Shown: one piece after another, positions 28,439 through 46,021 of the stretch
Layout: each line of letters starts with the position of its first letter
Numbering within the stretch: position 1 is the first letter of the stretch
Assembly: GCA_947482555.1 (NCBI GenBank)
Contig: CANKKB010000002.1
Location: 1 to 46,085, forward strand
Direction: 5' to 3'
DNA from: Burkholderiaceae bacterium
GTDB lineage: Bacteria > Pseudomonadota > Gammaproteobacteria > Burkholderiales > Burkholderiaceae
DNA length: 46,085 bases
The notes under the pieces: model-generated
The model's input: only the letters and a program-made list of their open reading frames with translations
Told to the model about the DNA's origin: nothing
The model's database searches: none
Translations under genes and position numbers: made by a program

Positions 28439-29914
28439 TTAAACTGAAAAACTTAAATCTACATTTCCAAATCGGGATTTAACCCTTGAAAAATTCTTGC
28501 CCTGTATTAGATACTTCATTAGCTCGGAAAAGGGCTGCAACTGCTTACCCTGCTTGAGGGCTACTGAGGTACCATCTTGCAGACCTAAAGCTAAATTGGG
28601 GGGATAGAAGGCATGCAGGCAAAGCTGCTCGCGCGAAACTGACTTACCCCATTGCTTTCTTAAATCACTTAAAGCAGGTTTGATGAAATCACCTGGTCGC
28701 TGACTCGGGTCATACTCCACCCCAGCGCGTGCCATTACTTCTGCGCTTGCCTGACCTGCTAATTTTCCGTAATGCCCACGCAAGTAGAGCTTTACTTCAT
28801 CAGGAATTGTTTTATAGCGTTCACCCTGCATCACATTGAGAACGGCCTGAGTCACAATATACTGGGCAAAAGGGCTAACTAAAATGGGATAGCCCAAGTC
28901 TTTTCTCACTTGCGCAGTTTCTTCTAAAATTTCTTGTTCTCGATGGGCGATGCCAAGAGTTGCTAACTGCGCCCGTAGATTAGAGATCATGCCACCCGGT
29001 ATTTGGTGTTCATACAGTGCTGGGTCATATGCTAGCTTTTCACCCCGGGGCAAACTATCGCGAGTACAAATCCAATCGAAATAGTCATCCACCTCTTGCA
29101 AGGAAGATATATTCATCTTTGGTGCTCTACCGAGGCGCTCTGCACTAGCCAATACTTCAGTTACCGAAGGTAACGAGGCGCCATTGGCTAAGCAATTCGT
29201 GGCAACATAACCATAACTAAAGCCGGCTTTAATTGCTTCTTCATAAACTAAAGGGGCCAAACCCGACTGACAATGGGAATGTAATTTCAAGGGAATGTCC
29301 TTGGCTACAGCAACTAGCGCTGGAAATAAAGTAGCGCCACGCTCTGGGGTCAATAAGCCTGTAGGATCTTTAACAGAAATAAAATCGACTTTTAACTCAA
29401 CTAGTTCTTTGGCCCGCGCCACAAAATAAGCATCGTCATGGACTGGGCTTAATGCATAAGTGAGCATCGCATTAATCAGCATGCCATGTTTTTTACCTGA
29501 GGTAATCGAAGAAGTAATGTTGCGGTTATCGTTGAGCGCATCGTAGACTGTTAATACCTTAACGCCTGATTCTGCCAATAAAGCAATATTCAGATCGACT
29601 ACATCATCAGGAAACAATTCAAAGGTATAAATACTTTGTCCACGTGTCAAGGCATCGGTAGGTGTTTCTAGTTCGCGACTGAGAAATGCCATGCGTTTCC
29701 AGGGGTCTTCACGCAAGAAACGTACCATTACATCAAACACGGCACCTCCCAAAATATTGATATAGCCGTAACCTGCACGGTCGATATTATCTAGGGCCGG
29801 GTAAATTTGGGCTGTAGTCATGCGCGTTGACCATAGGCATTGATGCGCATCGCGCAGCGTTACATCAATCATTTGGAATGGTGCAAGTTGACTAAGTAGT
29901 TTTTTTGCCATCAC
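28439..29914 (-). CDS. Biotin-dependent carboxyltransferase subunit (PycB / oxaloacetate decarboxylase alpha-like), divergent, no biotinyl domain
   Basis: IDVTLRDAHQCLWSTRMTTAQ, GGAVFDVMVRFLREDPWKRM, VTVYDALNDNRN, ISVKDPTGLLTPERG, LKLHSHCQSGLAPLVYEEAI. Confidence 0.88.
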   Translation of the reverse strand: MMAKKLLSQLAPFQMIDVTLRDAHQCLWSTRMTTAQIYPALDNIDRAGYGYINILGGAVFDVMVRFLREDPWKRMAFLSRELETPTDALTRGQSIYTFELFPDDVVDLNIALLAESGVKVLTVYDALNDNRNITSSITSGKKHGMLINAMLTYALSPVHDDAYFVARAKELVELKVDFISVKDPTGLLTPERGATLFPALVAVAKDIPLKLHSHCQSGLAPLVYEEAIKAGFSYGYVATNCLANGASLPSVTEVLASAERLGRAPKMNISSLQEVDDYFDWICTRDSLPRGEKLAYDPALYEHQIPGGMISNLRAQLATLGIAHREQEILEETAQVRKDLGYPILVSPFAQYIVTQAVLNVMQGERYKTIPDEVKLYLRGHYGKLAGQASAEVMARAGVEYDPSQRPGDFIKPALSDLRKQWGKSVSREQLCLHAFYPPNLALGLQDGTSVALKQGKQLQPFSELMKYLIQGKNFSRVKSRFGNVDLSFSV

Positions 29915-30513
29915 AACTCGATTACCATTAAAACTTGACCTGCCTCAATCGTTTCGCCATCAGCTACAAAGATATCGATAATTTTTCCAGCGTGTTCAGC
30001 TGAAATCGTATTGAGTAGCTTCATCACTTCCACAATGCACACGGGAGTATCGGGGCTTACCTTTGAGCCAATCTCGACAAAAGGCGGTGAAGTAGGATTG
30101 GGTCGGCGGTAAAAAGTTCCCACCATTGGGCTCAAGACTTCGAAAAGACCAGCTTGACTCCTTGGCTTAATAGCTTCTACAGCCTTAATAGCTTCTACAG
30201 CTGTAGGGGCTGTCGTTTGGGTTGCTCCTCCTAGATTTGCGCTGGAGCTCACTTCAGGAGAGCGCTTATTTCCAACTTCGATTTCTATTTCAAATTCTGG
30301 TGTTTTATAAGAAAAAGTATTGAAATGACCAGCATCTTTAATGAGGCCAATGACTTCTTTCACTTGTTGCATTGAAATTGTGCCAACCTGCACAGTAGGC
30401 TGAGTTTGAGCAATAGATGAAGAACCGGGCTTAGGAATTATCTTTGAGCTTGGCTTAACCCTAGCTAGGGCTAGGAGTCCGTCCTTTGTAGCGGGCATCT
30501 TTTTACGAGTCAC
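29911..30513 (-). CDS. Biotin carboxyl carrier protein (AccB-like)
   Basis: Biotinylation motif VCIVEVMKLLNTISAEHAGKI; FEVLSPMVGTFYRRPNP. Confidence 0.92.
   Translation of the reverse strand: MTRKKMPATKDGLLALARVKPSSKIIPKPGSSSIAQTQPTVQVGTISMQQVKEVIGLIKDAGHFNTFSYKTPEFEIEIEVGNKRSPEVSSSANLGGATQTTAPTAVEAIKAVEAIKPRSQAGLFEVLSPMVGTFYRRPNPTSPPFVEIGSKVSPDTPVCIVEVMKLLNTISAEHAGKIIDIFVADGETIEAGQVLMVIEL
30163..30198. repeat. Tandem 18-bp duplication within the BCCP linker
   Basis: tggcttaatagcttctac followed by agccttaatagcttctac; encodes repeated EAIKAV units. Confidence 0.7.
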
Positions 30514-30522
30514 AGTTACAAT

Positions 30523-30617
30523 CCATTAATGAGTTCTTTATTTAATGGAATATAAAGTATCATCAGATGAAATGCATTAAGGGTAAATACCTAAATATGC
30601 CCCATAAAACCATTAAT
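30523..30617. promoter_or_regulatory. Divergent promoter region with candidate IclR operator (CCATTAA-N12-TTAATGG, plus a further CCATTAAT)
   Basis: CCATTAA at 30523-30529, TTAATGG at 30542-30548, CCATTAAT at 30610-30617; lies between divergent BCCP and iclR genes. Confidence 0.5.
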
Positions 30618-30625
30618 AGCTAAAA

Positions 30626-31444
30626 ATGAAGAAATTAATTGCTGTAACTTCAAAAAATTCAGCGGATCTTACTGCCCTCACCATCCTGGAGGGAAGTAAA
30701 TCCAGTATGGCAGAGAAAGTATTGCTCATCTTGGTGGTCATTGCCAACTCGGAATTTCCGCTCACACTTGAAAATATTTCTTCGAGCATTGGTTTAGCAA
30801 AGCCGACCGCTTTTCGTCTTTTAAATACCCTGGTAGCTCAAGGTTTTGTTGAGCGCGATCAGAATGGGCGTCGCTTCCAGCCGAGCGCCAAATTTCGTTT
30901 AATGGGTATTAATTTACTCTCTGGTGACTCAATTCGCTCCCAACGAGTTGCGGTCATGAAACGTCTAGTTGATACTATTGGTGAAACATGTAACTTTAAT
31001 ATTTTGGATGGTAATGAAGTTCTTTACTTAGATCGGATTGAAACCGCTGCACCTATACGTTTACATATTGACTCTGGCATGCGAGTTCCACTTCACTGCA
31101 CTGCAAGTGGTAAATTATTTCTTTCGTATATGAATGAAACACAAATAAAGCGAATTGTTGGCTTAGAGCCATTTGATTATTACACTCCTAAGACCATGAC
31201 TAGCTTTAGCGATTTAATGCCTGCAATAAAAAAAATCAGTGGGCAAGGTTATTCAATTGATGAATGTGAATACTTAGAAGGTTCCATTTGTGTTGCTGTA
31301 CCTGTTCGTGACCAAAAAAATAAAGTATATGCGGCACTTGTTGCCCATGGGCCAACACCCCGCTTTACCTTAAAACTCGCCGAGCAAGCAGTGGCGAATT
31401 TGCAAGCCGCAGCTGCGGAATTAGAAGATAGCCTCACCCAATAA
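30626..31444 (+). CDS. IclR-family regulator 1
   Basis: wHTH LENISSSIGLAKPTAFRLLNTLVAQGFVERD; effector domain ETCNFNILDGNEVLYLDRIE, LHCTASGKLFLSYM. Confidence 0.95.
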   Translation: MKKLIAVTSKNSADLTALTILEGSKSSMAEKVLLILVVIANSEFPLTLENISSSIGLAKPTAFRLLNTLVAQGFVERDQNGRRFQPSAKFRLMGINLLSGDSIRSQRVAVMKRLVDTIGETCNFNILDGNEVLYLDRIETAAPIRLHIDSGMRVPLHCTASGKLFLSYMNETQIKRIVGLEPFDYYTPKTMTSFSDLMPAIKKISGQGYSIDECEYLEGSICVAVPVRDQKNKVYAALVAHGPTPRFTLKLAEQAVANLQAAAAELEDSLTQ

Positions 31445-31474
31445 ACAATCTCAAGCCAATTTTTCGGAGCTTAC

Positions 31475-32311
31475 ATGAATCAACCTGTCATTATTACCGT
31501 TGCTATTACTGGTGCAGTACCGCGCAAAAAAGATTGCGCAGGTTTACCTGTTACGCCGCCAGAACAAATCGAAGAAACTCAGAAAGCGTATGAGGCCGGA
31601 GCATCTTTGGTGCATATTCATGTGCGCAATCCCGATGAAAGCCCCAGCTCTAACCCAGACCTATATGCAGCAGTACAAGAAGGCGTAAAAAAATATTGTC
31701 CCGAGATGATCGTTCAATTTTCTACTGGTGGCCGTGGTCGAGATCAAGCTGCGCGAGGAGCGATGCTCTTTCATCGACCCGATATGGCTTCCTTAGCAAC
31801 CGGCTCAACGAACTTTCCAGTAGGCATTTACGAAAATCCTACTGATTTTGTTGAAGGGCTAGCGAGCGAGATGTTGAAATATGAAATTAAACCGGAAATT
31901 GAAATATTTGATTTAGCGATGCTCTATAACGCCGCTAATTTAGTTAAAAAAGGATTACTTAACTCACCTCCCCATGTGCAATTTGTCATGGGTGTTCCTA
32001 ATGCAATGCCGGTACGGCGCTCTATTTTAGAATTTTTAATTAAAGAGCTAAAAGATGTGATGCCGACTGCCACCTGGACAGCGGCAGGTATTGGTAAACA
32101 CCAATTAACTGTTAATGAATGGGCGCTAGAGCTAGGTGGTCATGTACGTACAGGCTTAGAAGATAACCTACGCTACGATGAAACTCGAGTTGCGAAAGAC
32201 AATGCCGAACTTGTTTCGCGGGTAGCAAAAATGGCGCAGGCCATGGGACGCCCCGTAGCAAGCGGTAAGCAAGCGCGTGAAATATTAGGCTTAAGACCTA
32301 TCTCCGCATGA
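31475..32311 (+). CDS. BKACE (DUF849), copy 2
   Basis: ITVAITGAVPRKKDCAGLPVTPPEQI, GASLVHIHVRNPDESPSSNP, GGHVRTGLEDNLRYDETRVAKDNAELV. Confidence 0.92.
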   Translation: MNQPVIITVAITGAVPRKKDCAGLPVTPPEQIEETQKAYEAGASLVHIHVRNPDESPSSNPDLYAAVQEGVKKYCPEMIVQFSTGGRGRDQAARGAMLFHRPDMASLATGSTNFPVGIYENPTDFVEGLASEMLKYEIKPEIEIFDLAMLYNAANLVKKGLLNSPPHVQFVMGVPNAMPVRRSILEFLIKELKDVMPTATWTAAGIGKHQLTVNEWALELGGHVRTGLEDNLRYDETRVAKDNAELVSRVAKMAQAMGRPVASGKQAREILGLRPISA

Positions 32312-33933
32312 GCGAGGCCGCTTCCTTAACAAACCAACAGTTTGATTACATCATCATTGGTGCTGGATCTGCGGGTTGTGTTCTAGCGAATCGCCTCTCT
32401 GCTAATCCACAGAATCGCGTCTGCTTACTTGAAGCCGGACCAGAAGATAGCTTACCTTGGATTCATTTGCCGATTGGTTACGGCAAGACCATGTGGGATG
32501 CCAGGGTCAATTGGAAATTAAATACTGCGCCTGAACCGGGTATGAATAATCGGGAAATTTATTGGCCAAGAGGGAAATGCCTTGGTGGCTCGAGTTCAAT
32601 TAATGGCTTAATTTTTATTCGCGGGCAAAAGGAAGATTACGACCAATGGCGTGACTTGGGCAATGTTGGTTGGGGCTGGGACGACGTACTGCCCTACTTT
32701 AAAAAAGCGGAGGGAAATGATCGCTTAGGCGAACCACTGCACTCACAAGAAGGGCCACTGAAGGCTTCATCGATACCCAAAAAACATCCCTTGGTAGAAG
32801 CCTTTAAGTTAGCTGCTAATGCCCTAGGTGTTCCTACTACCGATGACTTCAACAATCTCACGCAAGAAGGTGTTGGTTACTACCAGCTATCAACCCATAA
32901 GGGATTGCGCTGTAGTACGGCTGTCGCTTATTTGCGTCCTGCTCGTAAGCGCTCGAATCTCACCGTGCTTACCAACAGCCAGGCCACACAGATTCTATTT
33001 ACAGATCGTAAAGCCAGTGGCGTAGAACTATTCCATAAAGGCAAAAAAACTACGCTACTAGCGAATAAAGAAGTCCTCTTATGCGCAGGCGCAATTCAAA
33101 GCCCACAACTCTTACAACTTTCTGGAATTGGTCCAGCTAAACTGCTGCAAGAATTTAATATTCCACTGATTCAAGATTTACCTGGCGTGGGTGAAAACCT
33201 GCAAGATCATTTGCAGTACCGTTTAATTTATGAGTTAAATCAACCCATCTCGACCAATGATCAGCTACGCTCTATTTTTGGTAAAGTGAAAATGGGCTTA
33301 GATTGGTTACTATTTCGTGGTGGGCCGTTGTCGATCGGTATCAACCAAGGCGGCTTATTTACCAAAGTCATGCCCACCTCAAGTAAACCTGATATTCAAT
33401 TTCATTTAGGTACGCTCTCTGCAGACATGGCTGGGGGCCAAGTTCACCCATTCTCTGGATTTACGATGTCGGTTTGTCAATTACGCCCTGAATCTCGTGG
33501 CTATGTCCGCATTCAATCGGCTGACCCACTCGTGCCACCACGCATTGTTGCCAACTATTTAGATACCCAATATGATCGCGATATTAGTATTGCTGCAATT
33601 AAATTTGCGCGTAGCATTACGCAAACGCAGCCACTCAGTAATTTAATTGCGCGTGAAGTGAAGCCCAACAATCCGAAAAGCAATGAAGAGATTTTGGCAT
33701 TTTGTCGCGAAACTGGCGCGACTATTTTTCATCCCTCTGGGACCTGCAAAATGGGTCCAGATGATGATTCGATGGCGGTAGTCGACGCCGATTTGCGTGT
33801 TCGCGGTGTTACTGGTTTACGTGTCATCGATTGTTCTGTCATGCCAAGGCTGGTATCGGGCAATACCAACTGGCCCGTAGTAATGATTGCTGAAAAAGCG
33901 GCTGATATAATTAATTATCAATTGCTAATTTAA
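32308..33933 (+). CDS. GMC-family FAD oxidoreductase (choline dehydrogenase-like)
   Basis: DYIIIGAGSAGCVLANRLS, WPRGKCLGGSSSINGLIFIRGQ, FHPSGTCKMGPD, SVMPRLVSGNTNWPVVMIAEKAADII; ATGA overlap with BKACE 2. Confidence 0.95.
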   Translation: MSEAASLTNQQFDYIIIGAGSAGCVLANRLSANPQNRVCLLEAGPEDSLPWIHLPIGYGKTMWDARVNWKLNTAPEPGMNNREIYWPRGKCLGGSSSINGLIFIRGQKEDYDQWRDLGNVGWGWDDVLPYFKKAEGNDRLGEPLHSQEGPLKASSIPKKHPLVEAFKLAANALGVPTTDDFNNLTQEGVGYYQLSTHKGLRCSTAVAYLRPARKRSNLTVLTNSQATQILFTDRKASGVELFHKGKKTTLLANKEVLLCAGAIQSPQLLQLSGIGPAKLLQEFNIPLIQDLPGVGENLQDHLQYRLIYELNQPISTNDQLRSIFGKVKMGLDWLLFRGGPLSIGINQGGLFTKVMPTSSKPDIQFHLGTLSADMAGGQVHPFSGFTMSVCQLRPESRGYVRIQSADPLVPPRIVANYLDTQYDRDISIAAIKFARSITQTQPLSNLIAREVKPNNPKSNEEILAFCRETGATIFHPSGTCKMGPDDDSMAVVDADLRVRGVTGLRVIDCSVMPRLVSGNTNWPVVMIAEKAADIINYQLLI

Positions 33934-33941
33934 AATTATAA

Positions 33942-35219
33942 ATGCCCCGGCTGCCTTTTTCTCACTGGTTACCAGAATACAAAACCCCCGGCACTATACG
34001 CGCTGATTTATTAGCCGGGCTTACTGGAGCAGTAGTCGTTTTGCCGCAAGGCATTGCTTTTGCGATGCTGGCCGGTATGCCACCGCAATACGGACTTTAT
34101 GCGGCGATGGTACCTTGCTTAATTGCTGCCCTATTTGGCTCAAGCCGCCTGATGGTTACGGGACCAGCAAACGCCATATCTTTGACAACGATGGCATTAA
34201 TTGCGCCTCTCGCAACTCCAGAATCAGCGGAATATGTTGGCTTAGTTCTCACCCTCAGTTTTCTAATTGGTCTGATTCAAATTACCTTAGGATTTAGTGG
34301 TGCTGGGAAGTGGGTCCAAAAAGTACCGCACTCAGTAATTGTTGGTTTTACTGTTGGGGCTGCTATTTTGATTATGAATAGCCAAATTGGCACGGTTACT
34401 GGTTTTGCGATTCCACGCGGTATTAGTCCGCATGAAACCGTACATGAACTGTATTTGGCCCTGATGCAAAATCCATGGCATCCGGAAGTAATGGGTTTAG
34501 TAATAGCTACAATTTTAATTATTATTGTCTGGCGCCCACTTAATCGCTGGTTTCCAGGAATGCTTGTAGCCGTTATTATTGGCAGTCTAATTGCGCTTTA
34601 TATCGAAAGTCTTTACCCTGAACTTACGCCCTTTAAGCGAGTGAGTAGCATTCCGGGGCCTATTCCCATCTTTTCCTTACCGCATCTTGACGTGAATACC
34701 TTGAACCAATTATTTGGTGCAACCTTAATCATGGCCCTATTGGCTTCCACCGAAGCGATGGCTATTGCCCGAGCGATGGCTATAAAAACAAAAGATACAT
34801 TTAATGCGAATCAAGAATTTATTGGTCAAGGTTTAGCCAATCTCGCGGGTTCATTTTTTTCAGCCTATCCATCAAGTGGCTCATTTAATCGCAGTGGTGT
34901 GAATTTATCTGCTGGCGCAAAAACGCCTTTATCAGCTGTTAGTGCGGCACTTTTTTTAGTGATTATTTTGACCTTTGTTGGCCCGCTCGCTAAATATCTA
35001 CCTTACCCCGTTATTGGAGCCCTATTATTAGTGGTTGCTTGGAATCTCATCGACCCTAAAGAGATTCGCAAAGAATTTCATCATGGGCCAAAGGAATGGG
35101 TGCCCATGATAATTACATTTATTGGAACTATTACGATTTCTTTGGAATGGGCGATTCTAGCGGGTATTTTTACCTCTATCCTTGCTCACCATTTATATAA
35201 AGCCAAAAAGTCGCTTTAA
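33942..35219 (+). CDS. SulP-family anion permease lacking a STAS domain
   Basis: RADLLAGLTGAVVVLPQGIAFAMLAGMPPQYGLYAAMVP, SSRLMVTGPANAISL; ORF ends right after the last TM. Confidence 0.92.
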   Translation: MPRLPFSHWLPEYKTPGTIRADLLAGLTGAVVVLPQGIAFAMLAGMPPQYGLYAAMVPCLIAALFGSSRLMVTGPANAISLTTMALIAPLATPESAEYVGLVLTLSFLIGLIQITLGFSGAGKWVQKVPHSVIVGFTVGAAILIMNSQIGTVTGFAIPRGISPHETVHELYLALMQNPWHPEVMGLVIATILIIIVWRPLNRWFPGMLVAVIIGSLIALYIESLYPELTPFKRVSSIPGPIPIFSLPHLDVNTLNQLFGATLIMALLASTEAMAIARAMAIKTKDTFNANQEFIGQGLANLAGSFFSAYPSSGSFNRSGVNLSAGAKTPLSAVSAALFLVIILTFVGPLAKYLPYPVIGALLLVVAWNLIDPKEIRKEFHHGPKEWVPMIITFIGTITISLEWAILAGIFTSILAHHLYKAKKSL

Positions 35220-36787
35220 GTAGAAGTGCTGACACCCGGAAGATCTGATAACTTTAAGCGCTGAATTTTTCCTGAAGCGCCGCGCGGTAATTCATCAACA
35301 AATAGAATAATCTTGGGCGTGCGCAGTTTACCTAATTGCTCCAAGCAAAAATTGCGTATCTCAATCTCGGTGCAACTAGTATCCGGCCTTAAGACGATGC
35401 ACGCCAAAATTTCTTGGCCATAGTTCGCATCCGGGATTCCCACTGCAGCCGCGTCGAGAACGGCAGGATGCTTTAATAAAGCTTCATCTATTTCGCGGGG
35501 GGCAATATTTTCACCGCCCTTAATAATCAATTCCTTCAAGCGGCCGGTAATGAAATAAAAACCATCATCATCACGCAAGCCTAAGTCGCCTGTTTTAAGC
35601 CAGCCATCACTGGCAAAAGCTTTGAGAGTTTCAGCTTCGCCATGGTAATACGCTTGCATTACATTTGCACCACGTAAGCAAACTTCCCCAATTTGGTTAT
35701 TAGCCAATTCAATTCCATCGGGATCGACTACTTTGGCCTCAACGCCACAAGGTAAGCCAGGGCTACCATAACGTCGCTCACCATCTTGCGGATTGCAAAA
35801 TACCATCGAGGCCGATTCAGTCATACCCATGCCTTCTATAACCGGAATACCAAAGAGATTTTCAAACTCATGATGGTGCTCAGGTGGTAATGGTGCAGAG
35901 GCCGAACGGCCAAAACGGATTTGCTTTAATTGCGCTGGCAAATTAGGGTCTACGCCATTTGCTTTGGCAGCATTAATTAAATAAGCAATGATGGTTGGCA
36001 CCATGTTAATCCATGTACACCTGTATTTGATGGCGACCTGCCACCAATTACTAACCGAAAAATGATGAGGGGCAACAATAGCGCCACCTGAAAAGAAGGG
36101 AGAAATTGTCGCAATCACTTGCCCATTAATGTGGTAAATCGGTAATGAACTTAAGACAGTATCTGCTGGAGTAAGCCTATGCCACTGACTTACGGTCTTA
36201 GCTGCATACAGTACATTTGCATGGCTGAGGAGTACGCCCTTAGGGGTGCCTGTTGTGCCAGAGGTATACATTAATAAAGCGGGATTATGAACCGTAAGTT
36301 TCGGTAAATTACCGGCTACAGAGTTCATAAATGGGCCCTGTGCCGCGTCGGGGTCAATCTCAACGAGTTTAAATTTAGGCTGAATTTTTTTTAAGGCATT
36401 AAATAAGTGAATTTTATTGTCAGGTGCATAAAATAATATTTCAATATCACTATGCTCAAATACCCAAGCCAGCTGATCAACTGGGGCTAATAAGTTCATT
36501 GGCACCACGACTCGACCTGTCGCCATCGTCGCCAGAAAAACACTCGCTGTTTGTCGACCGTTATGCATAAATAAACCCACATGCCCATGAGCACTCACCC
36601 CCTGCTCATCCAGCCAGGTAGAGAGATGTTGGGCCTCTTGGGCTAACTCACCATAGGTCACCACAGCCTCAGTTTCGGGTGCATATAAAAAGGGGTGCTC
36701 AGCTTGCTGTTGATGCCAGTACGTCATTACGTCGCCAATGGTCAAACATGAGCTTGGCGGTAAGGTTGAAGTCATTTGCTCTAACAT
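35216..36787 (-). CDS. AMP-dependent acyl-CoA synthetase (SauT/sulfoacetate-CoA ligase role suggested by context)
   Basis: YTSGTTGTPKGVLLSH, GMGMTESASMVF, GWLKTGDLG, GRLKELIIKGGENIAPREID, PRGASGKIQR. Confidence 0.88.
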   Translation of the reverse strand: MLEQMTSTLPPSSCLTIGDVMTYWHQQQAEHPFLYAPETEAVVTYGELAQEAQHLSTWLDEQGVSAHGHVGLFMHNGRQTASVFLATMATGRVVVPMNLLAPVDQLAWVFEHSDIEILFYAPDNKIHLFNALKKIQPKFKLVEIDPDAAQGPFMNSVAGNLPKLTVHNPALLMYTSGTTGTPKGVLLSHANVLYAAKTVSQWHRLTPADTVLSSLPIYHINGQVIATISPFFSGGAIVAPHHFSVSNWWQVAIKYRCTWINMVPTIIAYLINAAKANGVDPNLPAQLKQIRFGRSASAPLPPEHHHEFENLFGIPVIEGMGMTESASMVFCNPQDGERRYGSPGLPCGVEAKVVDPDGIELANNQIGEVCLRGANVMQAYYHGEAETLKAFASDGWLKTGDLGLRDDDGFYFITGRLKELIIKGGENIAPREIDEALLKHPAVLDAAAVGIPDANYGQEILACIVLRPDTSCTEIEIRNFCLEQLGKLRTPKIILFVDELPRGASGKIQRLKLSDLPGVSTST

Positions 36788-36841
36788 AAAAATTGGGTCA
36801 AACCCGAATGATTAAACTGACTTAATTGATAAGGAAGTCAA

Positions 36842-38248
36842 TTACTGACGCGAAAATTGACTGAAATAATTTTCCAGTAAAACTTCCACTGTCGGCACAA
36901 TTTCAGGAATCGGACGAACGACACGGGAAATATTGAGGTAATGACGATAGTTCATATTATCCGAAAAATTATTACGCCCCCAAGTGCCGCACCCCATTGA
37001 TAAAGAAAAGGGTAGGCCATTATCAAAACTGCCACCGGTGGCGATCGCATGAGCTTGATTGACAATGACTCTAGCAACGGGCAATTCATTTGCTAACTCA
37101 GCAGCGCGTTGCTCCATGATTGGGCCCTGTAACTGGGTATGCAAGCCGACCGAATGGCCAGAGCCTTGATACGCATACACTTTGGTAATCAAAGCTTTAG
37201 CGTCTGCAAAATTGGCAACTTGCCAAACTGTTAATACGGGACTTAATTTTTCACCAGAAAATGGCGCATTTGCCCCAGATCCTTCTTCTTCTACCATTAA
37301 AAAGCGCGCGGTCTTCGCGAGCGGGTTTTTTAGCTCAGCTCGCTCAGCAATAAATGCTGCAGTCTGGGCGGTGAGTGTCGAGGTTAATTTACCATCATGA
37401 AACATCACTACTTGCAAACGTTGTTTATCATCTGCATCTAACAATACACCCCCTGCCTGCTCTAAAGCCTGAATAGCTTTAGCGTATACAGGGGCGCAAA
37501 TCACCACGCCGTTTTCACTCGAGCAGCTCGTGGCGTTATCAAATGTTTTTGACTGGGCAATTTGTTTGGCTGATTCAGTTAAGTCAGCTAATTCATCAAT
37601 GATGACTACGACATTGCCAGCACCAACGCCAAATGCAGGCGTTCCAGAAGCGTAAGCCGCCCGAATATTTGCCTGCGAACCTGTTGCTACAACTAAATCG
37701 GCCAAGCGCATTAACTCTTGCGTAGCATCTTTAGTGATGGGATTAGGTAAAACTTGCACTAAATCACGCGGTGCTTTAACTAAATCAAGCTGTTGATGCA
37801 CAAATTCTAATAAACGTGCGCAAGTAGTTTGTCCTTTTGGCGACGGCGCAACAATAATTGCATTTCGGCACTTTAAGGCATTGAGAATTTTATTAATTGG
37901 AGTGGCACCTGGGTTAGTCGAGGGCGTTATCGCCGCTACTACCCCTACGGGCCTGGCATATTCAGCCAACCCTGTAGCTGCGTTATCTGCAATCAATCCA
38001 ACCGTTTTTGCATGCTGAAGATCGCGCACTAAGCCTAAGGTTTTACGATAATTTTTCTTAAATTTATCCGCCACATTGCCCAGGCCCGTATCGTGCACTG
38101 CTAATTCAGCCAAGGCTTGATTACGCTTCGGCTCCAAAATAGCCCAGGCTACGGCCTCGACAACTAAATCAACTTCACTTTGAGTATATTTTTCAAAGGT
38201 TTGTTGTGCGGCTCGGGCGCGCGCAATTAAATTTTCTACTGGTGACAT
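36842..38248 (-). CDS. Acylating aldehyde dehydrogenase, sulfoacetaldehyde dehydrogenase (SauS)-like
   Basis: AAITPSTNPGATPINKILNALKCRNAIIVAPSPKG, ATGSQANIRAAYASGTPAFGVGAGNVVVIID, SKTFDNATSCSSENGVVI with catalytic Cys; 468 aa. Confidence 0.8.
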   Translation of the reverse strand: MSPVENLIARARAAQQTFEKYTQSEVDLVVEAVAWAILEPKRNQALAELAVHDTGLGNVADKFKKNYRKTLGLVRDLQHAKTVGLIADNAATGLAEYARPVGVVAAITPSTNPGATPINKILNALKCRNAIIVAPSPKGQTTCARLLEFVHQQLDLVKAPRDLVQVLPNPITKDATQELMRLADLVVATGSQANIRAAYASGTPAFGVGAGNVVVIIDELADLTESAKQIAQSKTFDNATSCSSENGVVICAPVYAKAIQALEQAGGVLLDADDKQRLQVVMFHDGKLTSTLTAQTAAFIAERAELKNPLAKTARFLMVEEEGSGANAPFSGEKLSPVLTVWQVANFADAKALITKVYAYQGSGHSVGLHTQLQGPIMEQRAAELANELPVARVIVNQAHAIATGGSFDNGLPFSLSMGCGTWGRNNFSDNMNYRHYLNISRVVRPIPEIVPTVEVLLENYFSQFSRQ

Positions 38249-39270
38249 TATTCCGCCTTAATACTCGACTCTCTAGTTACCTTACTCCATTTAGCCAATT
38301 CAGCTTTTACGATCGCACCTAATTGAGCTGGCGTGCTGCCTACCGCCTCTGCGCCCTGGGCGATTAGTTTTTCCTTAGTACTGGGTTGTGCTAAGACCTT
38401 AACTACTGCGTTATATAGTGCATCAACAATTGCTTGAGGTGTGCCCACTGGGACGAACATGGCATACCAAGAATCCACTTCGAAATCTTTGAAACCAGAC
38501 TCTGCCATGGTTGGTACGTCCGGAAAAATTACTGAGCGCTTAGTAGTCGATACCGCTAAAGCGCGCAATTTGCCGGCCTTAATATATTGGGTTGCAGCGG
38601 GTATGGAAACCCATAACAAGGGTACTTGTCCTGCCATTACATCAGTAACCGCTGGGCCACCGCCGCGATAAGGGATATGCGTCATCTTCACATTCGCTGA
38701 TGTTGCCATCATGGCGCCAGCAAGATGCCCTGGTGAGCCATTACCAACGGAAGCAAACGCAATGGTGTCAGGTTTGAGGCGAGCTAACTCAATGGCTTCT
38801 TTAACCGTCTTTGCCGGAAAATCAGGATTGGCGACTAAAATTTGCGGCAGTGAAGCGACTAATGAAACAGGTAAAAAATCTTTTTCGGTATTAAAAGCAA
38901 GTTTGGGATAAATCGCCGGATTAATCGTATGTGAGGATAAAGTAAATAATACGGTGTAACCATCTGCTGGTGACTTAGCAACTGCGTCAGTGCCAATCGA
39001 ACCCCCTGCACCGCCACGATTATCAATAATAATCTGCTGACCCAAAGCTTGACTCATCGGCTCTTGCACAATCCGCGCAATGACATCTGTACCGCCACCA
39101 GGTGGATAAGGGACGACAAATTTAATGGGCTTATTCGGCCATGCCTGCGCCAAAGCGCCCGTGGAAAACATCAACCCGTAAGCAGAAAAAATTAAGGTGA
39201 CAAGCAGCTTTATAACAATGGATTTTGACATCTTGATTCCTTTATCTTCGTATACCCATTTTTTTATCAT
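38248..39270 (-). CDS. Bug/TctC-family substrate-binding protein
   Basis: WPNKPIKFVVPYPPGGGTDVIARIV...RGGAGGSIGTDAVAKSPADGYTVLF. The start may be the internal Met of MSKSIVIKLL. Confidence 0.94.
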   Translation of the reverse strand: MIKKWVYEDKGIKMSKSIVIKLLVTLIFSAYGLMFSTGALAQAWPNKPIKFVVPYPPGGGTDVIARIVQEPMSQALGQQIIIDNRGGAGGSIGTDAVAKSPADGYTVLFTLSSHTINPAIYPKLAFNTEKDFLPVSLVASLPQILVANPDFPAKTVKEAIELARLKPDTIAFASVGNGSPGHLAGAMMATSANVKMTHIPYRGGGPAVTDVMAGQVPLLWVSIPAATQYIKAGKLRALAVSTTKRSVIFPDVPTMAESGFKDFEVDSWYAMFVPVGTPQAIVDALYNAVVKVLAQPSTKEKLIAQGAEAVGSTPAQLGAIVKAELAKWSKVTRESSIKAE

Positions 39271-39330
39271 AGATTAGGTAGTTTTAGGTCCTACAGACCA
39301 ATGCCTATAGAATAACTAATCTTACTCAAT

Positions 39331-39345
39331 GGAACAAGTTGTTTC
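39331..39345. promoter_or_regulatory. Candidate IclR operator GGAACAA-G-TTGTTTC in the Bug/iclR divergent region
   Basis: 6 of 7 arm positions complementary around a central G; a related GAAACGTTC lies further downstream toward iclR. Confidence 0.45.
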
Positions 39346-39437
39346 GTATAAGTGCAAATACTAGTATTTTATTGATAAATTACCGAAACGTTCTATTAAA
39401 ATGAACAAATTCACCCATTTCATGAGATTACATAGGC

Positions 39438-40238
39438 ATGCTTGAATCAACCCTAACTGACTTGGTGGAAGGCATCAAAAAAGATCCCGCTAATGAAAAT
39501 TCATCGATGCTGAAAGGGGTGGTCATTCTAGAGGCTCTAGCCACCCTTTCTCAGCCGGCTACCTTGGCCCAACTGATGCAAATTACTGCCATGCCAAAAG
39601 CATCGCTGCACCGCACATTAGCGATCTTTGAAGAGGCTGGCTTAGTTTCTCGTGAACCTGGCGGCAAAACGTATGCCCCCGGCGAACGCCTCTCTAAATT
39701 AGCAATTGCCACGATTACGCACGATAGTGTTGCTGCCATTCGCCACAGCGTACTCAGAAAATTAGTTGCTGAGGTTGGGGAAACCTGCAACCTCGCAGTG
39801 TTGCGTAGAGGCGAGTTATTTTATTTAGACCGCGTTGAAGCGGATTGGCCACTGCGTTTGCATTTGCCACCGGGAACCGTGCTACCTCCACATTGCAGTG
39901 CAAGCGGAAAATTACTTCTGGCTTTTAAGGTTGCGGATGAGCGCCGTCAACTATTACAAAATTTACCGCTCTTGCCCTTTACCCATCGTACGATTACCGA
40001 CCGCAGGCTTTTGGAGTCTGAATTAGAGCGAATTGTGACTACCGGCTATGCTGTTGATAACGAAGAGTATGTGATCGGCGTATCTTGTGTTGCTGTACCG
40101 GTTTACGATAGTAACCAAGATGTTGTAGCTGCAATTGCGATTCATGCGGCCACTGCGAGGCTACCTCTGAATCAAGCAATGGAGTACATTCCGCAACTAC
40201 AAGAGGCAGCTCAACGCGTCTCACAAACACTGAGCTAA
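39438..40238 (+). CDS. IclR-family regulator 2 (SauR-like by position)
   Basis: TLAQLMQITAMPKASLHRTLAIFEEAGLVSRE; GETCNLAVLRRGELFYLDRVE; PPHCSASGKLLLAF. Confidence 0.95.
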   Translation: MLESTLTDLVEGIKKDPANENSSMLKGVVILEALATLSQPATLAQLMQITAMPKASLHRTLAIFEEAGLVSREPGGKTYAPGERLSKLAIATITHDSVAAIRHSVLRKLVAEVGETCNLAVLRRGELFYLDRVEADWPLRLHLPPGTVLPPHCSASGKLLLAFKVADERRQLLQNLPLLPFTHRTITDRRLLESELERIVTTGYAVDNEEYVIGVSCVAVPVYDSNQDVVAAIAIHAATARLPLNQAMEYIPQLQEAAQRVSQTLS

Positions 40239-41152
40239 TGAGTCGCCCTACCTATCCGCGTTTGCAGCAACTCATTGCTTCTGCCAAAAGTCATTTATCG
40301 CTGGGCGTGGTTTATCCTTTAAGTCTGCCAGCCCTTGAAACGGTTGGCGAACTACTAACGCATCAATTATGTGTACCCACTTTACTTGGCCCCGCAGAGC
40401 GTATTACTCAAATGGCCAAAGAGGCTGGTTTAGATTTAACTCATGTTCGCTTAATCGATACCCCTGATGATCCAGTCGCAGCTGCAAAAATAGCAGTGCA
40501 AATGGTCAAGCAAGGTGAATTTGCTGCCTTGATGAAAGGCTCACAACATACTGAAGACTTAATGGGTCCCATCGTTGAGCGTGGCGGCTTACGCACCGAA
40601 CGCCGCACCAGCCATCTTTTTCTTTTTGAATTGGCTAGCTACCCTAAATTGTTGGGTATTAGCGATTGTGTCGTCAATATCGCACCGAATGCAGCGCAAA
40701 AGCAGCAAATCTTACTCAGTAGTCTTGAGGCGCTCGACCGTTTGGGAATTCATCAGGCCAAAGTTGCAATCATTGCAGCCACTGAAGTCGTCAACCCCGC
40801 CATGCCAGCAACCGTCGATGCAAAAACCATTGTTGATACGCATCAAATTGCGTCTATTTATCCTGGTGCAGTCATTGAAGGTCCACTTGGCTTTGATAAT
40901 GCGCTCTCCGCCCTTTCCGCCAAAACCAAAGGCATTCAATCAATCGTGGCTGGTGAACCCGATCTATTGTTGGTGCCGGATTTACAGGTGGGCAATATTT
41001 TATATAAAGCCCTAATTTATATGGCTGGGGCTGAATGCGCCGGCGTTATTCTAGGCGCACAAGTGCCCATTATTTTGACCTCACGTGCCGACTCTGTTTT
41101 TTCTCGAGTAGCATCAACTGCGCTGGCGCTCCGCTTAGCCGCACAGCCATAA
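40238..41152 (+). CDS. Phosphate acetyl/butyryltransferase family (Pta-like)
   Basis: GEFAALMKGSQHTEDLM, ERRTSHLFLFEL, VAIIAATEVVNPAMPATVDA, GPLGFDNALS, LQVGNILYKALIYMAGAECAGVILGAQVPIILTSRADS; start overlaps iclR stop (TAATG). Confidence 0.9.
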   Translation: MSRPTYPRLQQLIASAKSHLSLGVVYPLSLPALETVGELLTHQLCVPTLLGPAERITQMAKEAGLDLTHVRLIDTPDDPVAAAKIAVQMVKQGEFAALMKGSQHTEDLMGPIVERGGLRTERRTSHLFLFELASYPKLLGISDCVVNIAPNAAQKQQILLSSLEALDRLGIHQAKVAIIAATEVVNPAMPATVDAKTIVDTHQIASIYPGAVIEGPLGFDNALSALSAKTKGIQSIVAGEPDLLLVPDLQVGNILYKALIYMAGAECAGVILGAQVPIILTSRADSVFSRVASTALALRLAAQP

Positions 41153-41195: not shown

Positions 41196-41789
41196 TCATT
41201 GTTTGCAGTTTGTCATACAACGTACTGCATTGGTATCGGGCCGATCATCAACTATAAAACCATCACGATTAGGCATCTTTACTGCCGCGAGAGTTTTGCT
41301 ATTCATTTCATCCGTTTTACCTACTAAGCCATTTAAATTCAAAATATAAGCCGAAACTGCATAAACTTCGTCATTCGTTAAAGATTGGGGCTTATCCATT
41401 GGCATCGAACGGCGCACATAATCAAATAAGATTGGTGCATAAGGGTACATGCTTCCGGGAGTAAGCACCCGGGCATTGGTGGTAAACGACCCTATGCCGC
41501 CTACCATCGTGCCAAAAACCGGGCCGCCTTTCGCATCAGGTCCATGGCAATAAGCACACTTGGCTGCATACACTTTCTCGCCAGCTACAGCATTACCTTG
41601 TCCAGCAGGTAAACCTAGGCCGTCTTGGGTGCGAATGTCAATATTCCAAGCTTTCAGATCTTGCTCAGAAATTGGCTTGCCAAATGCAGCGCCAGAGGTA
41701 TTTTTAGGTGCCGTATTTTGCGAAGTAGTACAAGCCCCCAATAAAGTTAAGCCTGCTGCAATTATTATTATTTTTTTAACCAATGCCAT
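41196..41789 (-). CDS. Mono-haem cytochrome c lipoprotein (SoxD/SorB-like partner)
   Basis: Lipobox LTLLGAC; single CAYCHGPDAKGGPVFG haem c site; downstream of the SoxC-like gene and overlapping it. Confidence 0.85.
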   Translation of the reverse strand: MALVKKIIIIAAGLTLLGACTTSQNTAPKNTSGAAFGKPISEQDLKAWNIDIRTQDGLGLPAGQGNAVAGEKVYAAKCAYCHGPDAKGGPVFGTMVGGIGSFTTNARVLTPGSMYPYAPILFDYVRRSMPMDKPQSLTNDEVYAVSAYILNLNGLVGKTDEMNSKTLAAVKMPNRDGFIVDDRPDTNAVRCMTNCKQ

Positions 41790-43092
41790 TTGTCACCTCC
41801 CCATTTGCGCTGACATTCCATGGGAAAATGCCATTGTGATGTTGTACAAAGCCTGTAATAGCGCGTACCTTTTTAATATCGTCTACAGTTGGTTGCACAT
41901 ATCCGGTGCTATCTACTGCACGGCTTGCAATTACTGCGGGTCCACCTTGCCAATTCCAGTTGAAGTTAAACCGTGTCAAACATTTATTGAGTACAGGGCC
42001 TTCTAGCTTAGCTTGCTGCCAATTTTTTCCACCATCAACCGAAACATCAACAGCAGCAATCTTGCCATTACCAGACCAAGCAAACCCAGTAATTTCGTTA
42101 TATCCCGGCTTGATCTTCATGTTACCCGAAGGATTTGTAATAACTGATTTAGCTTCCATTTCAAAACTAAATTTACGCCATTTTCCATCAGGCATTGGGT
42201 CGCTATAACGAGCTGTTTCGCCACGGACATGCCAGGGTTCGGTGCCTGCTTTAATCCGCCGCAACCATTTAATGCTAACGTTACCTTCCCAACCAGGAAT
42301 AAACAAACGCAGGGGGAAGCCATTTTCACTTCTGAGCATTTCGCCATTCATCGCATAAGCCAACATTGCCTCATCTAAAATACGATCTAGAGGCAAACTA
42401 CGCAAATGGCCAGAAGCATCCGCTCCCTCAGCCACTATCCACGTGGCTTTTGGATCTATGCCAGCTTCATCGAGCACCCAAGAAAGTGGTACCCCTGTCC
42501 ACTGCGCACAAGAAAGCAAACCATGGGTTTGTTGCACCGTTTTCGATGCGGGCTTAAGCCAATCGGTTAAGCCATTTCCAGAGCACTCCATAAAATGAAA
42601 ACGCGTTACTGTGGGATAACGCATTAAATCTGACATCGTTAATACCAGGGGCTTACCAACCATTCCGTGTACCACTAATTTATGGGTATCCGGATTAATA
42701 TCAGGTACCCCATTATGATGGCGCTCAAAAAACAATCCATTTGGGGTCACGATACCTGGCGTTGATTGGATTGGCGTCATGCTCCAATCAGAGAATTGCT
42801 GTCTATTCACTAAGACATCAGAGCGGCGGCGAATCACATTCGCTTCATACTTTGATGGCATACCGTAAGCGGCAACCAAGGGCGCACCCATTACTTGATT
42901 TGAGGCAGGAATCGGCAAAGGATCTGCCATTGCTGCTGTGCTAGCTATTCCTAGGGTGCCTGCTCCACCAGCCAGGGCTACCGATTTACGCAGAAATGAC
43001 CGCCGTGAAAATTCCTTAGACAGCGAGGTTGAGGCTTGAATTTCATTTTGTGAAGCCGCCACTATGGCTTGCATCTTTTTCGATTCTTTCAA
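41776..43092 (-). CDS. SoxC-like sulfite/sulfane dehydrogenase, molybdopterin subunit (sulfite oxidase family)
   Basis: Tat leader SRRSFLRKSVALAGGAG; FHFMECSGNG Mo-ligand Cys; GWEGNVSIKWLRRIKAG; ITGFAWSGNGKIAAVDVSVDGGKNWQQA. Confidence 0.88.
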   Translation of the reverse strand: MKESKKMQAIVAASQNEIQASTSLSKEFSRRSFLRKSVALAGGAGTLGIASTAAMADPLPIPASNQVMGAPLVAAYGMPSKYEANVIRRRSDVLVNRQQFSDWSMTPIQSTPGIVTPNGLFFERHHNGVPDINPDTHKLVVHGMVGKPLVLTMSDLMRYPTVTRFHFMECSGNGLTDWLKPASKTVQQTHGLLSCAQWTGVPLSWVLDEAGIDPKATWIVAEGADASGHLRSLPLDRILDEAMLAYAMNGEMLRSENGFPLRLFIPGWEGNVSIKWLRRIKAGTEPWHVRGETARYSDPMPDGKWRKFSFEMEAKSVITNPSGNMKIKPGYNEITGFAWSGNGKIAAVDVSVDGGKNWQQAKLEGPVLNKCLTRFNFNWNWQGGPAVIASRAVDSTGYVQPTVDDIKKVRAITGFVQHHNGIFPWNVSANGEVTNGIG

Positions 43093-43252
43093 TCTACGCT
43101 CCTCTTTAATTTCATATAAATACGCATTTTTGTAATGATTAGCATAGCCTGTTTAAGCCTATTTATACATAGATAAATCCCTTACGTATTTACCCCTATC
43201 TATCAATTGATAAAGAAATGAGGAGATTAGCTGAAGGGCTTGTTTTAAGTCC

Positions 43253-44317
43253 TTACCGTAGGCAAGAAAAAGGCAATTTTTCTATATAAACAGGGCCTAA
43301 ATGGCTATTTGTAGAGCTTACTGCAAGAGCTGGTGCTTGACCCCCCACATCGCCATTTACCAGGGCAGCTTGGTCTATAAAGCCAAGGCCAATTTCATAT
43401 CCTAATTGAGGGGAAAAAGCCCGGCTCGTAACTTGAACTTGTGGCGCTATCTTAGGGGCTAAATTAGTCGCATTATTTTCACCTAGCGCACTAGGCGGAA
43501 AATGCACACCTACCAGCAATTCTTGTCTACCGTCTGACTCACTACCTCTGTCAGCTCCGAACAATTTCCCAAGCGATGCAAGCGTTCGCGGCTCAATTAA
43601 TTCATTGCAAAATAAAATAAAGCCCGCCTCAATACGTAGGGTATTGGCAGCAAGAAAACCGCATTCCAAGGCAGGAAAAAAGGCTGTTGTCAGTAATTGC
43701 TGCCACAAGACAATAGCTTCTGCGCGAGGCACCAACAACTCATAGCCTAGCTCGCCGGTATACCCTAGACGAGCAATCGTTAACGCGGGGTAATTTGGCG
43801 GCTGATTAAAAGAAAAATATTGTGGTAAATCAATAACCTTAAGCCCTAGAGCAGCCTCCAATAAAGCGCCACTATGTGGGCCTTGTACTGCTATTACTTG
43901 ATATTGCCCAGCAATATCTGCCAGATGCAGGTCGCGATAAGGTCTTGCTGCCTTAAGTAAAAAGGGCAAAATGGAATAGCCAGTGATTAAATAAAAATGG
44001 TCTGGACCCAAGCGCCACACAGTGGCGTCTAACCAAACGTCGCCATTCTCATTTAGCAACATGCTATAGGCAATTTTTCCAATTGCCAATTCCTCACAAT
44101 TTCGGTTTTGAATAAGCTTAAGTAATGTAATGGCATCACTGCCGATTAATTCAACCGTACTCATAAAGGAGAAATCAAATAGACCTGCTGATCTTCTCAC
44201 TGCCCAATACTCTTGCTCAAGGGATGAAAATTCAGCCGGTAAAAGAAGATTTTGGCTAAGTTCCAGTAATGGGATTTTTCGCATGGCGAAATAATCTGCT
44301 AGCGCTGGTGACTCCAT
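43253..44317 (-). CDS. Aminomethyltransferase (GcvT/YgfZ) family protein
   Basis: EYWAVRRSAGLFDFSFMSTVELIGSDAITLL, VIAVQGPHSGALLEAALG, ARLGYTGELGYELLVP, EAGFILFCNEL. Confidence 0.82.
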   Translation of the reverse strand: MESPALADYFAMRKIPLLELSQNLLLPAEFSSLEQEYWAVRRSAGLFDFSFMSTVELIGSDAITLLKLIQNRNCEELAIGKIAYSMLLNENGDVWLDATVWRLGPDHFYLITGYSILPFLLKAARPYRDLHLADIAGQYQVIAVQGPHSGALLEAALGLKVIDLPQYFSFNQPPNYPALTIARLGYTGELGYELLVPRAEAIVLWQQLLTTAFFPALECGFLAANTLRIEAGFILFCNELIEPRTLASLGKLFGADRGSESDGRQELLVGVHFPPSALGENNATNLAPKIAPQVQVTSRAFSPQLGYEIGLGFIDQAALVNGDVGGQAPALAVSSTNSHLGPVYIEKLPFSCLR

Positions 44318-44321
44318 TTGG

Positions 44322-45086
44322 CTAAACCAAGGAATTAACTGTCATATAGACCCCAACCAGAATACATAGCCAGGCTGCGACTTTCTTTAAACGCTCAACC
44401 CGAACCTGATGAGCGATGATTACACCAATCCAGATGCCAATTAATTCAAACGGCAATATAAATGCGACGATTTTGAAATCAACTATGTTATTCATCACAT
44501 TAGCTAAGGAGCCCGACGCAGAAGCGATTACCTGTATAACCTGAGCAATACCGATGGTGAGTAGCGGACTAAATTTAAAGACTAGCATCAATGGCACTGA
44601 AAATAATGGGCCACCGGCTCCAGAAAGACCGGAACCAAAGCCCGCCAAAAGACCAATTAATATTAGTAAACCCGTTTTTTTACCGGTTAATTTCTGCGCT
44701 TTTGAATCGCTGTGCGTCGCCACAGAGATACGTGCTAATAAGGCCCAGACTCCCGCAGCAATAACCAATAAGCCAATTATGCTAATCAATAATTGATCAG
44801 CGGTTTTTGCATTCAGTTGTGCCCCGAGATAACTAGCGATTACCGCCCCTAAACAGACTGGTATAGACATGCGCCAAGCAATTGACCCACGCCGCTGAAA
44901 CAAATAAGTGCCCAAAGCGCCGGTAAAGATAAAGGTAATCAGGGCCGAAGCACTTGCCTGATGAATATCTAAGCCTGCAAAAGCAATCAAAGCCGGAATC
45001 AACAGCACTCCACCAACACCAACGGCGCCAATAAATGTCCCCGCCAATATTGCTGTAGCCGCCAATAAAAATAATCCCAGAACCAT
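44322..45086 (-). CDS. TauE/SafE-family permease (third copy)
   Basis: GTFIGAVGVGGVLLIPALI, LLAGFGSGLSGAGGPLFSVPLML. Confidence 0.9.
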   Translation of the reverse strand: MVLGLFLLAATAILAGTFIGAVGVGGVLLIPALIAFAGLDIHQASASALITFIFTGALGTYLFQRRGSIAWRMSIPVCLGAVIASYLGAQLNAKTADQLLISIIGLLVIAAGVWALLARISVATHSDSKAQKLTGKKTGLLILIGLLAGFGSGLSGAGGPLFSVPLMLVFKFSPLLTIGIAQVIQVIASASGSLANVMNNIVDFKIVAFILPFELIGIWIGVIIAHQVRVERLKKVAAWLCILVGVYMTVNSLV

Positions 45087-45094
45087 CCCCCCAA

Positions 45095-45126
45095 ATAAAT
45101 AGAGGGCCTTTAAGCCCTCTATTTAT
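45095..45126 (-). terminator. Intrinsic terminator-like hairpin downstream of the PanB-like gene
   Basis: ATAAATAGAGGGC-CTTTAA-GCCCTCTATTTAT perfect 13-bp stem; minus-strand continuation is T-rich. Confidence 0.75.
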
Positions 45127-45154
45127 AGTATCTCAAAATTACTGAGTAAAACGC

Positions 45155-46021
45155 TTACCAGTTAACCATCTTTTTAAATTTGTCCAACTCTTCAGGACTC
45201 ATAAAGACAGTGTGCTCTTTACCAGGATATTGACGAGTTTTAACATCGTGCATGTATTCGGTATAGCCTTTTTCTAAAATAGGTACTAAATCACAGTAAA
45301 TTTTAGAATGGCGTGGCACGTGCTTTTCATATAAATGGAATAAATCAGAGCCAATAATATGTACGCCGTCTGAAGTACTTCCAGAACCCAAGCTAATTAC
45401 CGGCACATCTAAAGTTTCAGCCAAATACTGGCTTACTTCTGAAGTACAAACTTCCGTCATGATCGAGAAGCAGCCGGCGTCAATGAATGCCTGCGCATCT
45501 TCAACCAATTCTTTGGCGCGTTGCGCTGTTTTACCTTGAGCAACAAAACCGCCTAATTGAGGCATTCTCATTGGGCAAATACCGATATGACCCTGAACTG
45601 GAATACCAGCCTTAATAATGGCTTCAATATTGCGAGCATGATGGATATTGCCTTCACACTTCATCACTTCAGCGCCTGCTTTAGCAACGTATTGAGCGGC
45701 GTTATCAACTGCCTGCTGCTCTGAAAGATGGAAGCTCATATAGGGCATATCAACCATGCGTAAGCCATACTGAGAGCCACGCTTAACGGCTTGAGCCATA
45801 AACATAACCTCTTCAAATGAGACTGAGGTAGTCGATTCATGACCAAATAGCACCATTCCACCAGTATCGCTAACGCAAAGAATATCAATGCCTAAACGAT
45901 CAGCAATAATGGCATTCTCATAGTCATAAACTGCAAGCTGAACAATCGGCTCTTTATTTTTTTTCTTCGCATTCAACATCGGAATGGTCATTTTTTTTCT
46001 TTTTACTGGTGCATCAGACAT
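45155..46021 (-). CDS. Divergent ketopantoate hydroxymethyltransferase (PanB)-family protein
   Basis: GIDILCVSDTGGMVLFGHESTTSVSFEEV, MVDMPYMSF, VMKCEGN, GIPVQGHIGICPMRMPQLGGFVAQGK, ISLGSGSTSDGVHIIGSDLF. Confidence 0.8.
   Translation of the reverse strand: MSDAPVKRKKMTIPMLNAKKKNKEPIVQLAVYDYENAIIADRLGIDILCVSDTGGMVLFGHESTTSVSFEEVMFMAQAVKRGSQYGLRMVDMPYMSFHLSEQQAVDNAAQYVAKAGAEVMKCEGNIHHARNIEAIIKAGIPVQGHIGICPMRMPQLGGFVAQGKTAQRAKELVEDAQAFIDAGCFSIMTEVCTSEVSQYLAETLDVPVISLGSGSTSDGVHIIGSDLFHLYEKHVPRHSKIYCDLVPILEKGYTEYMHDVKTRQYPGKEHTVFMSPEELDKFKKMVNW

Follow-up and report, generated by a model that had tools for sequence, protein, structure and literature searches.

The 46,085-nucleotide stretch of DNA analysed here (the window) corresponds to contig C2 in a Polynucleobacter metagenome-assembled genome of 1.95 Mb and 78% completeness, whose closest named relatives, judged by the SauS locus, were also Polynucleobacter. 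Five genes at 35216-41152 belong to families predicted to act in sulfoacetate catabolism, and all five were present in the list of open reading frames (ORFs) of the window at the positions given in Table 1. A periplasmic receptor gene of the Bug/TctC family, an acylating dehydrogenase gene (sauS) and an AMP-forming ligase gene (sauT) form an operon on the minus strand, and the genes of an IclR-type regulator and a phosphotransacylase (pta) lie divergently on the plus strand, overlapping by GCTAATGAG, i.e. TAATG. This layout had been described in an initial annotation made from the letters and ORFs of the window, and ORFs, families and overlaps agreed with it; a second TAATG overlap, which joins the Bug gene and sauS, was absent from that account. 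The gap between sauS and sauT is 54 nt, and a SulP permease gene is convergent with sauT with a 4-bp overlap. The true start of the Bug protein is probably 13 codons inside the annotated one. The promoter said to be shared by the two operons corresponds to a 167-nt intergenic region, in which two inverted repeats were conserved in an alignment of 28 Polynucleobacter loci; no sigma-70 consensus was found there by a promoter scan.

The SauS-like identity proposed for the dehydrogenase was supported by the profile comparison suggested along with it, in which the SauS model NF047625 gave 732.6 bits vs a cutoff of 600, over residues 4-466. The models for AdhE (359.9 bits), acetylating acetaldehyde dehydrogenase (291.7 bits) and EutE-type enzymes (184.1 bits) all scored far under their own cutoffs, and an AdhE or EutE identity was rejected. 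The catalytic Cys and Glu residues were unchanged across 80 aligned SauS rows. The ligase matched PF00501 (255 bits) and PF13193, with the motifs TSGTTGTPKG at residue 175 and GRLKELIIKGG at residue 415, and a ligase gene follows sauS in 79 of the 80 SauS loci of public genomes, the remaining locus being cut by a contig end. The AMP-forming fold, the motifs and the position beside sauS fit SauT, and sulfoacetate is the predicted substrate.

Between 30 and 46 kb of the window, no Xsc-sized ORF of the thiamine diphosphate-dependent type was recognised, and a genome-wide profile search placed no match to the Xsc family on the contig of the window. The same search did identify an Xsc of 602 aa on contig C57 (G000:C57:5075-6829), with a TIGR03457 score of 1057.7 bits vs a cutoff of 676.4. 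The module had been described as having no Xsc, which is true of the window contig but not of the genome. It had been suggested that Xsc lies elsewhere or that another enzyme desulfonates; the former was borne out by the C57 enzyme, whose gene co-occurs with sauS and is preceded by the operator of the sau/iclR region. A genome-wide absence of xsc, which had been named, together with a ligase inactive on sulfoacetate, as evidence against the reading, was thus not what the search returned. Among 37 Polynucleobacter genomes searched, SauS was present in seven (G000, G001, G002, G007, G010, G013 and G028), and xsc exceeded its cutoff in exactly those seven and in 0/30 others (Fisher p ~1e-7, kinship ignored). 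A close orthologue of the phosphotransacylase (66-83% identity) was likewise restricted to the seven genomes with xsc, other matches having ~40-46% identity.

The operator core GAACAANTTGTTYC had two exact matches genome-wide, against 0.18 expected from base composition. One lies between the Bug and IclR genes, and the other precedes the start codon of the C57 xsc by 26 bp. Sites with 0-1 mismatch precede xsc in most other Polynucleobacter, and similar sites precede the xsc of Variovorax. Because the core is found before both sau/iclR and xsc, a single IclR is likely to serve both promoters. The Polynucleobacter operator was not found before the Bug genes of Comamonadaceae, which often have a more distant IclR gene upstream of Bug, and the predicted single-regulator scheme is therefore specific to Polynucleobacter.

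A frequent gene order in Polynucleobacter is xsc, a nitroreductase gene, SoeC/B/A-type genes (DmsC-like, FeS and molybdopterin subunits), pta and iclR, followed by bug-sauS-sauT in reverse orientation. In nine loci (L039, L041, L043, L048, L049, L053, L054, L056 and L023) xsc lies ~5 kb past pta with soeABC in between, and in Variovorax Bug-SauS-SauT and Xsc are encoded at most 10 kb apart. A single locus of genome G099 (L147) holds soeCBA-pta-CobT-CobS-iclR on one strand, and xsc and tctC-tctB-tctA-sauS-sauT-sulP on the other. As xsc, soe, pta, iclR and sau are contiguous in several relatives, their split in the present genome is a local rearrangement. In the clade of the window, the DNA after pta is occupied by genes for a SoxC-type sulfite dehydrogenase and a cytochrome c, and only in this clade is a SoxC-type gene found beside pta. 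On contig C57, xsc is accompanied by soeC, soeB and a partial soeA, so that Xsc adjoins a SoeBC-type sulfite dehydrogenase, and by a CobS/CobT-like AAA+/VWA pair. SoeA is whole in L039, and no curated SoeA model matched.

These results suggest, with a probability of roughly 85%, that a regulon for sulfoacetate catabolism has its uptake-and-activation half at this locus. The families of the genes, the occurrence of all of them in a single genome, the co-occurrence, the synteny in relatives and the common site are observed, and the sulfoacetate interpretation of the initial annotation is upheld by a SauS score over the cutoff, an xsc in the genome, perfect co-occurrence within the genus and the common operator; the substrates, the transporter pairing and the regulation are predicted. 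The Bug receptor would capture sulfoacetate and deliver it to a TctBA encoded elsewhere, probably the pair on contig C88 that has no receptor. SauT would then convert sulfoacetate to sulfoacetyl-CoA, with ATP going to AMP, and SauS would reduce sulfoacetyl-CoA to sulfoacetaldehyde, from which the Xsc of C57 would yield acetyl phosphate and sulfite. Acetyl phosphate would be converted to acetyl-CoA by the PTA-family protein, and sulfite would be oxidised by the SoeABC-type complex encoded beside xsc, perhaps also by the SoxC/cytochrome c pair in the clade of the window. Binding of IclR to GGAACAANTTGTTYC sites at the sau/iclR and xsc promoters would keep the split halves one regulon.

Several points weigh against this interpretation. 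The co-occurrence test takes no account of phylogeny. There was no curated SauT model among the NCBIfam matches of the ligase. The phosphotransacylase is far from classical Pta, at 64 bits with TIGR00651 vs a cutoff of 311, and the solved structure closest to it is a phosphate butyryltransferase. As for uptake, TctA was found in 36/37 Polynucleobacter genomes and so does not follow the distribution of SauS, and the genome has two TctA proteins for which 61 receptors compete.

Uptake is the part for which an alternative deserves most weight. The genome has 61 TctC-family matches vs two TctA genes, and the search for tctAB that had been proposed located the latter on C88 and C36. The gene on C36 belongs to a complete TctCBA operon; the TctB-TctA pair on C88 is without an adjacent receptor, between genes for alanyl-tRNA synthetase and a glutaminyl-tRNA synthetase-like protein (named from reading the sequences). 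A complete operon of a tripartite tricarboxylate transporter (TTT) encodes TctC, TctA and TctB; at the sau locus the receptor was found by itself. As to the Bug/TTT uptake put forward for the module, the Bug gene lies outside any TTT operon and TctBA is encoded on a different contig, so that their pairing is a prediction; the best guess is that Bug imports sulfoacetate with the C88 TctBA. Separation of this kind has precedents in Bordetella, where Bug receptors are encoded apart from membrane subunits (PMC5994714), and in the terephthalate system TphC/TpiAB of Comamonas, where the receptor is encoded with the catabolic genes and the membrane subunits elsewhere (PMC8556258). It is unlikely, though a serious contender, that sulfoacetate enters by another route, with Bug as a sensor only, or with SulP or another carrier as importer. 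The absence of TctA and TctB from the operon would fit this, as would the non-transport roles that orphan TTT receptors can serve (PMC5994714) and the SulP gene that abuts sauT here and lies directly downstream of it on the same strand in L147. However, Bug is first in the operon, and its orthologue (at least 58% identity) precedes SauS in Polynucleobacter and Comamonadaceae loci; in Rhodocyclales, Oxalobacteraceae and others SauST is accompanied by another receptor and a full TctCBA set; and three loci (L021, L022 and L046) keep Bug but have no SulP beside SauT. SulP is more likely a sulfate exporter than a carrier for uptake, because in L147 it follows SauT despite the full TTT set. No SauU carrier of the major facilitator superfamily was found beside sauST, the SulP, Bug, IclR, PTA and BKACE/GMC (31475-33933) genes and the downstream genes being of other families. 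Receptor matches in the window are at 5124-5939, 9948-10760, 13638-14453 and 38269-39081; with 61 of them against two TctA genes, this 1.95-Mb genome, though small, resembles Bordetella in its expansion of Bug receptors.

It is improbable that the module is unrelated to sulfonates, with a Ptb-like phosphotransacylase and with another acid (succinate, malonate, glycolate or an acyl acid) as the substrate of the ligase and dehydrogenase. The phosphotransacylase did score higher with the Ptb model (231.6 bits) than with classical Pta (64 bits), and the solved structures closest to SauS are those of succinate-semialdehyde and acetaldehyde dehydrogenases. Against this, the SauS equivalog cutoff was surpassed by 133 bits, xsc co-occurred in 7/7 vs 0/30 genomes, sau is physically linked to xsc in many relatives, and the operator is common to both. 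Desulfonation by a second Xsc-like enzyme on contig C1 (G000:C1:28030-29730; L183 361-7669) in place of the C57 Xsc is the least credible alternative: the enzyme is encoded, beside TauABC-like transporter genes, a GMC oxidoreductase gene and its own divergent IclR gene, but its 630 bits are under the TIGR03457 cutoff (676), it had no counterpart when the other 36 Polynucleobacter genomes were searched at that threshold, and its gene is preceded by no exact match to the operator, while the C57 Xsc fits the cutoff, the genus distribution and the operator. The C1 locus possibly represents another C2-sulfonate pathway.

In Cupriavidus necator H16, as far as the SauRSTU system (Weinitschke 2010) is summarised in PMC12625764, SauT and SauS feed Xsc and phosphate acetyltransferase, and uptake is by SauU. 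The proposed pathway likewise has an AMP-forming SauT and an acylating SauS followed by Xsc, present in the same genome, and phosphate acetyltransferase. It differs in that no SauU was found adjacent to sauST, the first gene of the operon encodes an orphan Bug, and iclR, which is coupled to pta, has an operator in common with xsc. Hybrid clusters of sauST with the TTT transporter SauXYZ were reported in 2025 in Arctic sponge symbionts (PMC12625764), which resemble the present locus in having SauS and SauT with a TTT receptor in place of SauU. Those clusters are described as including the transporter, whereas in the present genome the receptor gene alone lies with sauST and the genes of the membrane half are elsewhere. 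The sauSCD-sauXYZ system of Bilophila wadsworthia, in the summary given by PMC12625764, shares a SauS homologue and TTT-type uptake, but its ligase SauCD is ADP-forming; the ligase of the window is AMP-forming and not of the SauCD type, and its partner enzyme is Xsc. The resemblance to TphC/TpiAB (PMC8556258) is in gene arrangement, with TctAB-type membrane genes elsewhere; the substrate and pathway are others, and the pairing was reported there and is predicted here. The rearranged Sau module with a Bug/TTT receptor seen in the initial annotation is a supported reading, but SauST with TTT has a precedent (PMC12625764), and sulfoacetate degradation by SauST and Xsc was already known. The present case differs in the orphan-receptor form, in the spread of that form through Polynucleobacter and Comamonadaceae, and in an operator that ties separated halves. 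A limited literature search found no described sulfonate pathway in the freshwater genus Polynucleobacter, for which the locus provides a testable genomic basis of sulfoacetate use. It also offers a catabolic regulon whose halves, on different contigs here and joined in relatives, are tied by one operator, and a candidate ligand for one of the approximately sixty Bug receptors of the genome.

The CobS/CobT-like MoxR AAA+/VWA pair on C57 (L027, 2083-4878) and xsc are divergent, with the IclR site between them, and such a pair also lies beside xsc in L067, L069, L071-L073 and L147; in L147 the genes of the pair form one operon with iclR and pta, which they overlap or abut. Both proteins scored under the curated cutoffs (TIGR01650, 458.7 vs 558.55; TIGR01651, 197.7 vs 759.05). 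Within Polynucleobacter the pair was present in the seven genomes that have xsc and in 0/30 others, and the CobN family was not found in G002, G013 (both among the seven) or G045, all of which carry the pair. A cobaltochelatase function was rejected on the two cutoffs and on the CobN distribution, which does not fit. In xsc neighbourhoods across the order, the pair was at most 10 kb from 9/13 Xsc with at least 78% identity to the C57 Xsc and from 0/31 others, and all 35 Xsc linked to a pair fell in one clade (SH-aLRT 100). Comparable pairs are CbbQO, which serves Rubisco, and NorQD, which serves nitric oxide reductase. MoxR/VWA pairs are often chaperones of a neighbouring enzyme (PMC9976466). 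By analogy, the CobST-like pair could plausibly be a dedicated chaperone that matures or reactivates Xsc or SoeABC, a role for which no report was found in a limited literature search; the linkage raises the question of whether an AAA+ chaperone of their own is required by some Xsc enzymes. A GntR regulator gene and a gene of the galactarate/altronate dehydratase family (L027 191-1363) also lie next to xsc and the CobST-like pair. A possible identity of the dehydratase-family gene is SuyB, of sulfolactate sulfo-lyase.

Table 1. Features of the sau locus and its surroundings in the window
Feature	Position	Strand	Basis
SulP-family permease without STAS domain, possible sulfate exporter	33942..35219	+	PF00916
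SauT-like AMP-forming sulfoacetate-CoA ligase (predicted substrate)	35216..36787	-	PF00501/PF13193; adjoins SauS
SauS, acylating sulfoacetaldehyde dehydrogenase	36842..38248	-	NF047625; C242 and E245 invariant
Orphan Bug/TctC periplasmic receptor, candidate sulfoacetate receptor	38248..39270	-	PF03401; no adjacent TctA/TctB
IclR-type operator candidate GGAACAAGTTGTTTCG	39331..39346	none	kept in the intergenic regions of 28 Polynucleobacter loci
Second conserved inverted repeat, GTTC-N9-GAAC, close to IclR start	39390..39406	none	alignment of 28 regions
IclR-family regulator, predicted to control sau and xsc promoters	39438..40238	+	PF01614/PF09339
PTA/PTB-family phosphotransacylase, predicted phosphate acetyltransferase	40238..41152	+	PF01515, 127.5 bits; NF006045, 313 vs cutoff 282
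Cytochrome c, putative partner of SoxC-type enzyme	41196..41789	-	PF00034; CxxCH at residue 78
SoxC-type sulfite dehydrogenase catalytic subunit, putative auxiliary sulfite oxidation	41776..43092	-	TIGR04555, 603.7 bits vs cutoff 420
TauE/SafE-family (TSUP) exporter, putative sulfite or sulfate export	44322..45086	-	PF01925, 123.6 bits

Two further groups of genes flank the locus. Those at 28439-33933 encode carboxyltransferase and biotin-carrier proteins, an IclR, a BKACE of the 3-oxoadipate:acetyl-CoA acetyltransferase type (447 bits vs a cutoff of 350) and a GMC oxidoreductase, and they stay beside sau in many Polynucleobacter. The genes at 41196-46021 (the SoxC-type enzyme, the cytochrome c, and GcvT-like, TauE-like and PanB-like proteins) adjoin sau only in the clade of the window (L020, L034, L035 and L093). 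Homologues of the choline-dehydrogenase-like GMC protein, with ~60% identity, were also found near sau in Variovorax.

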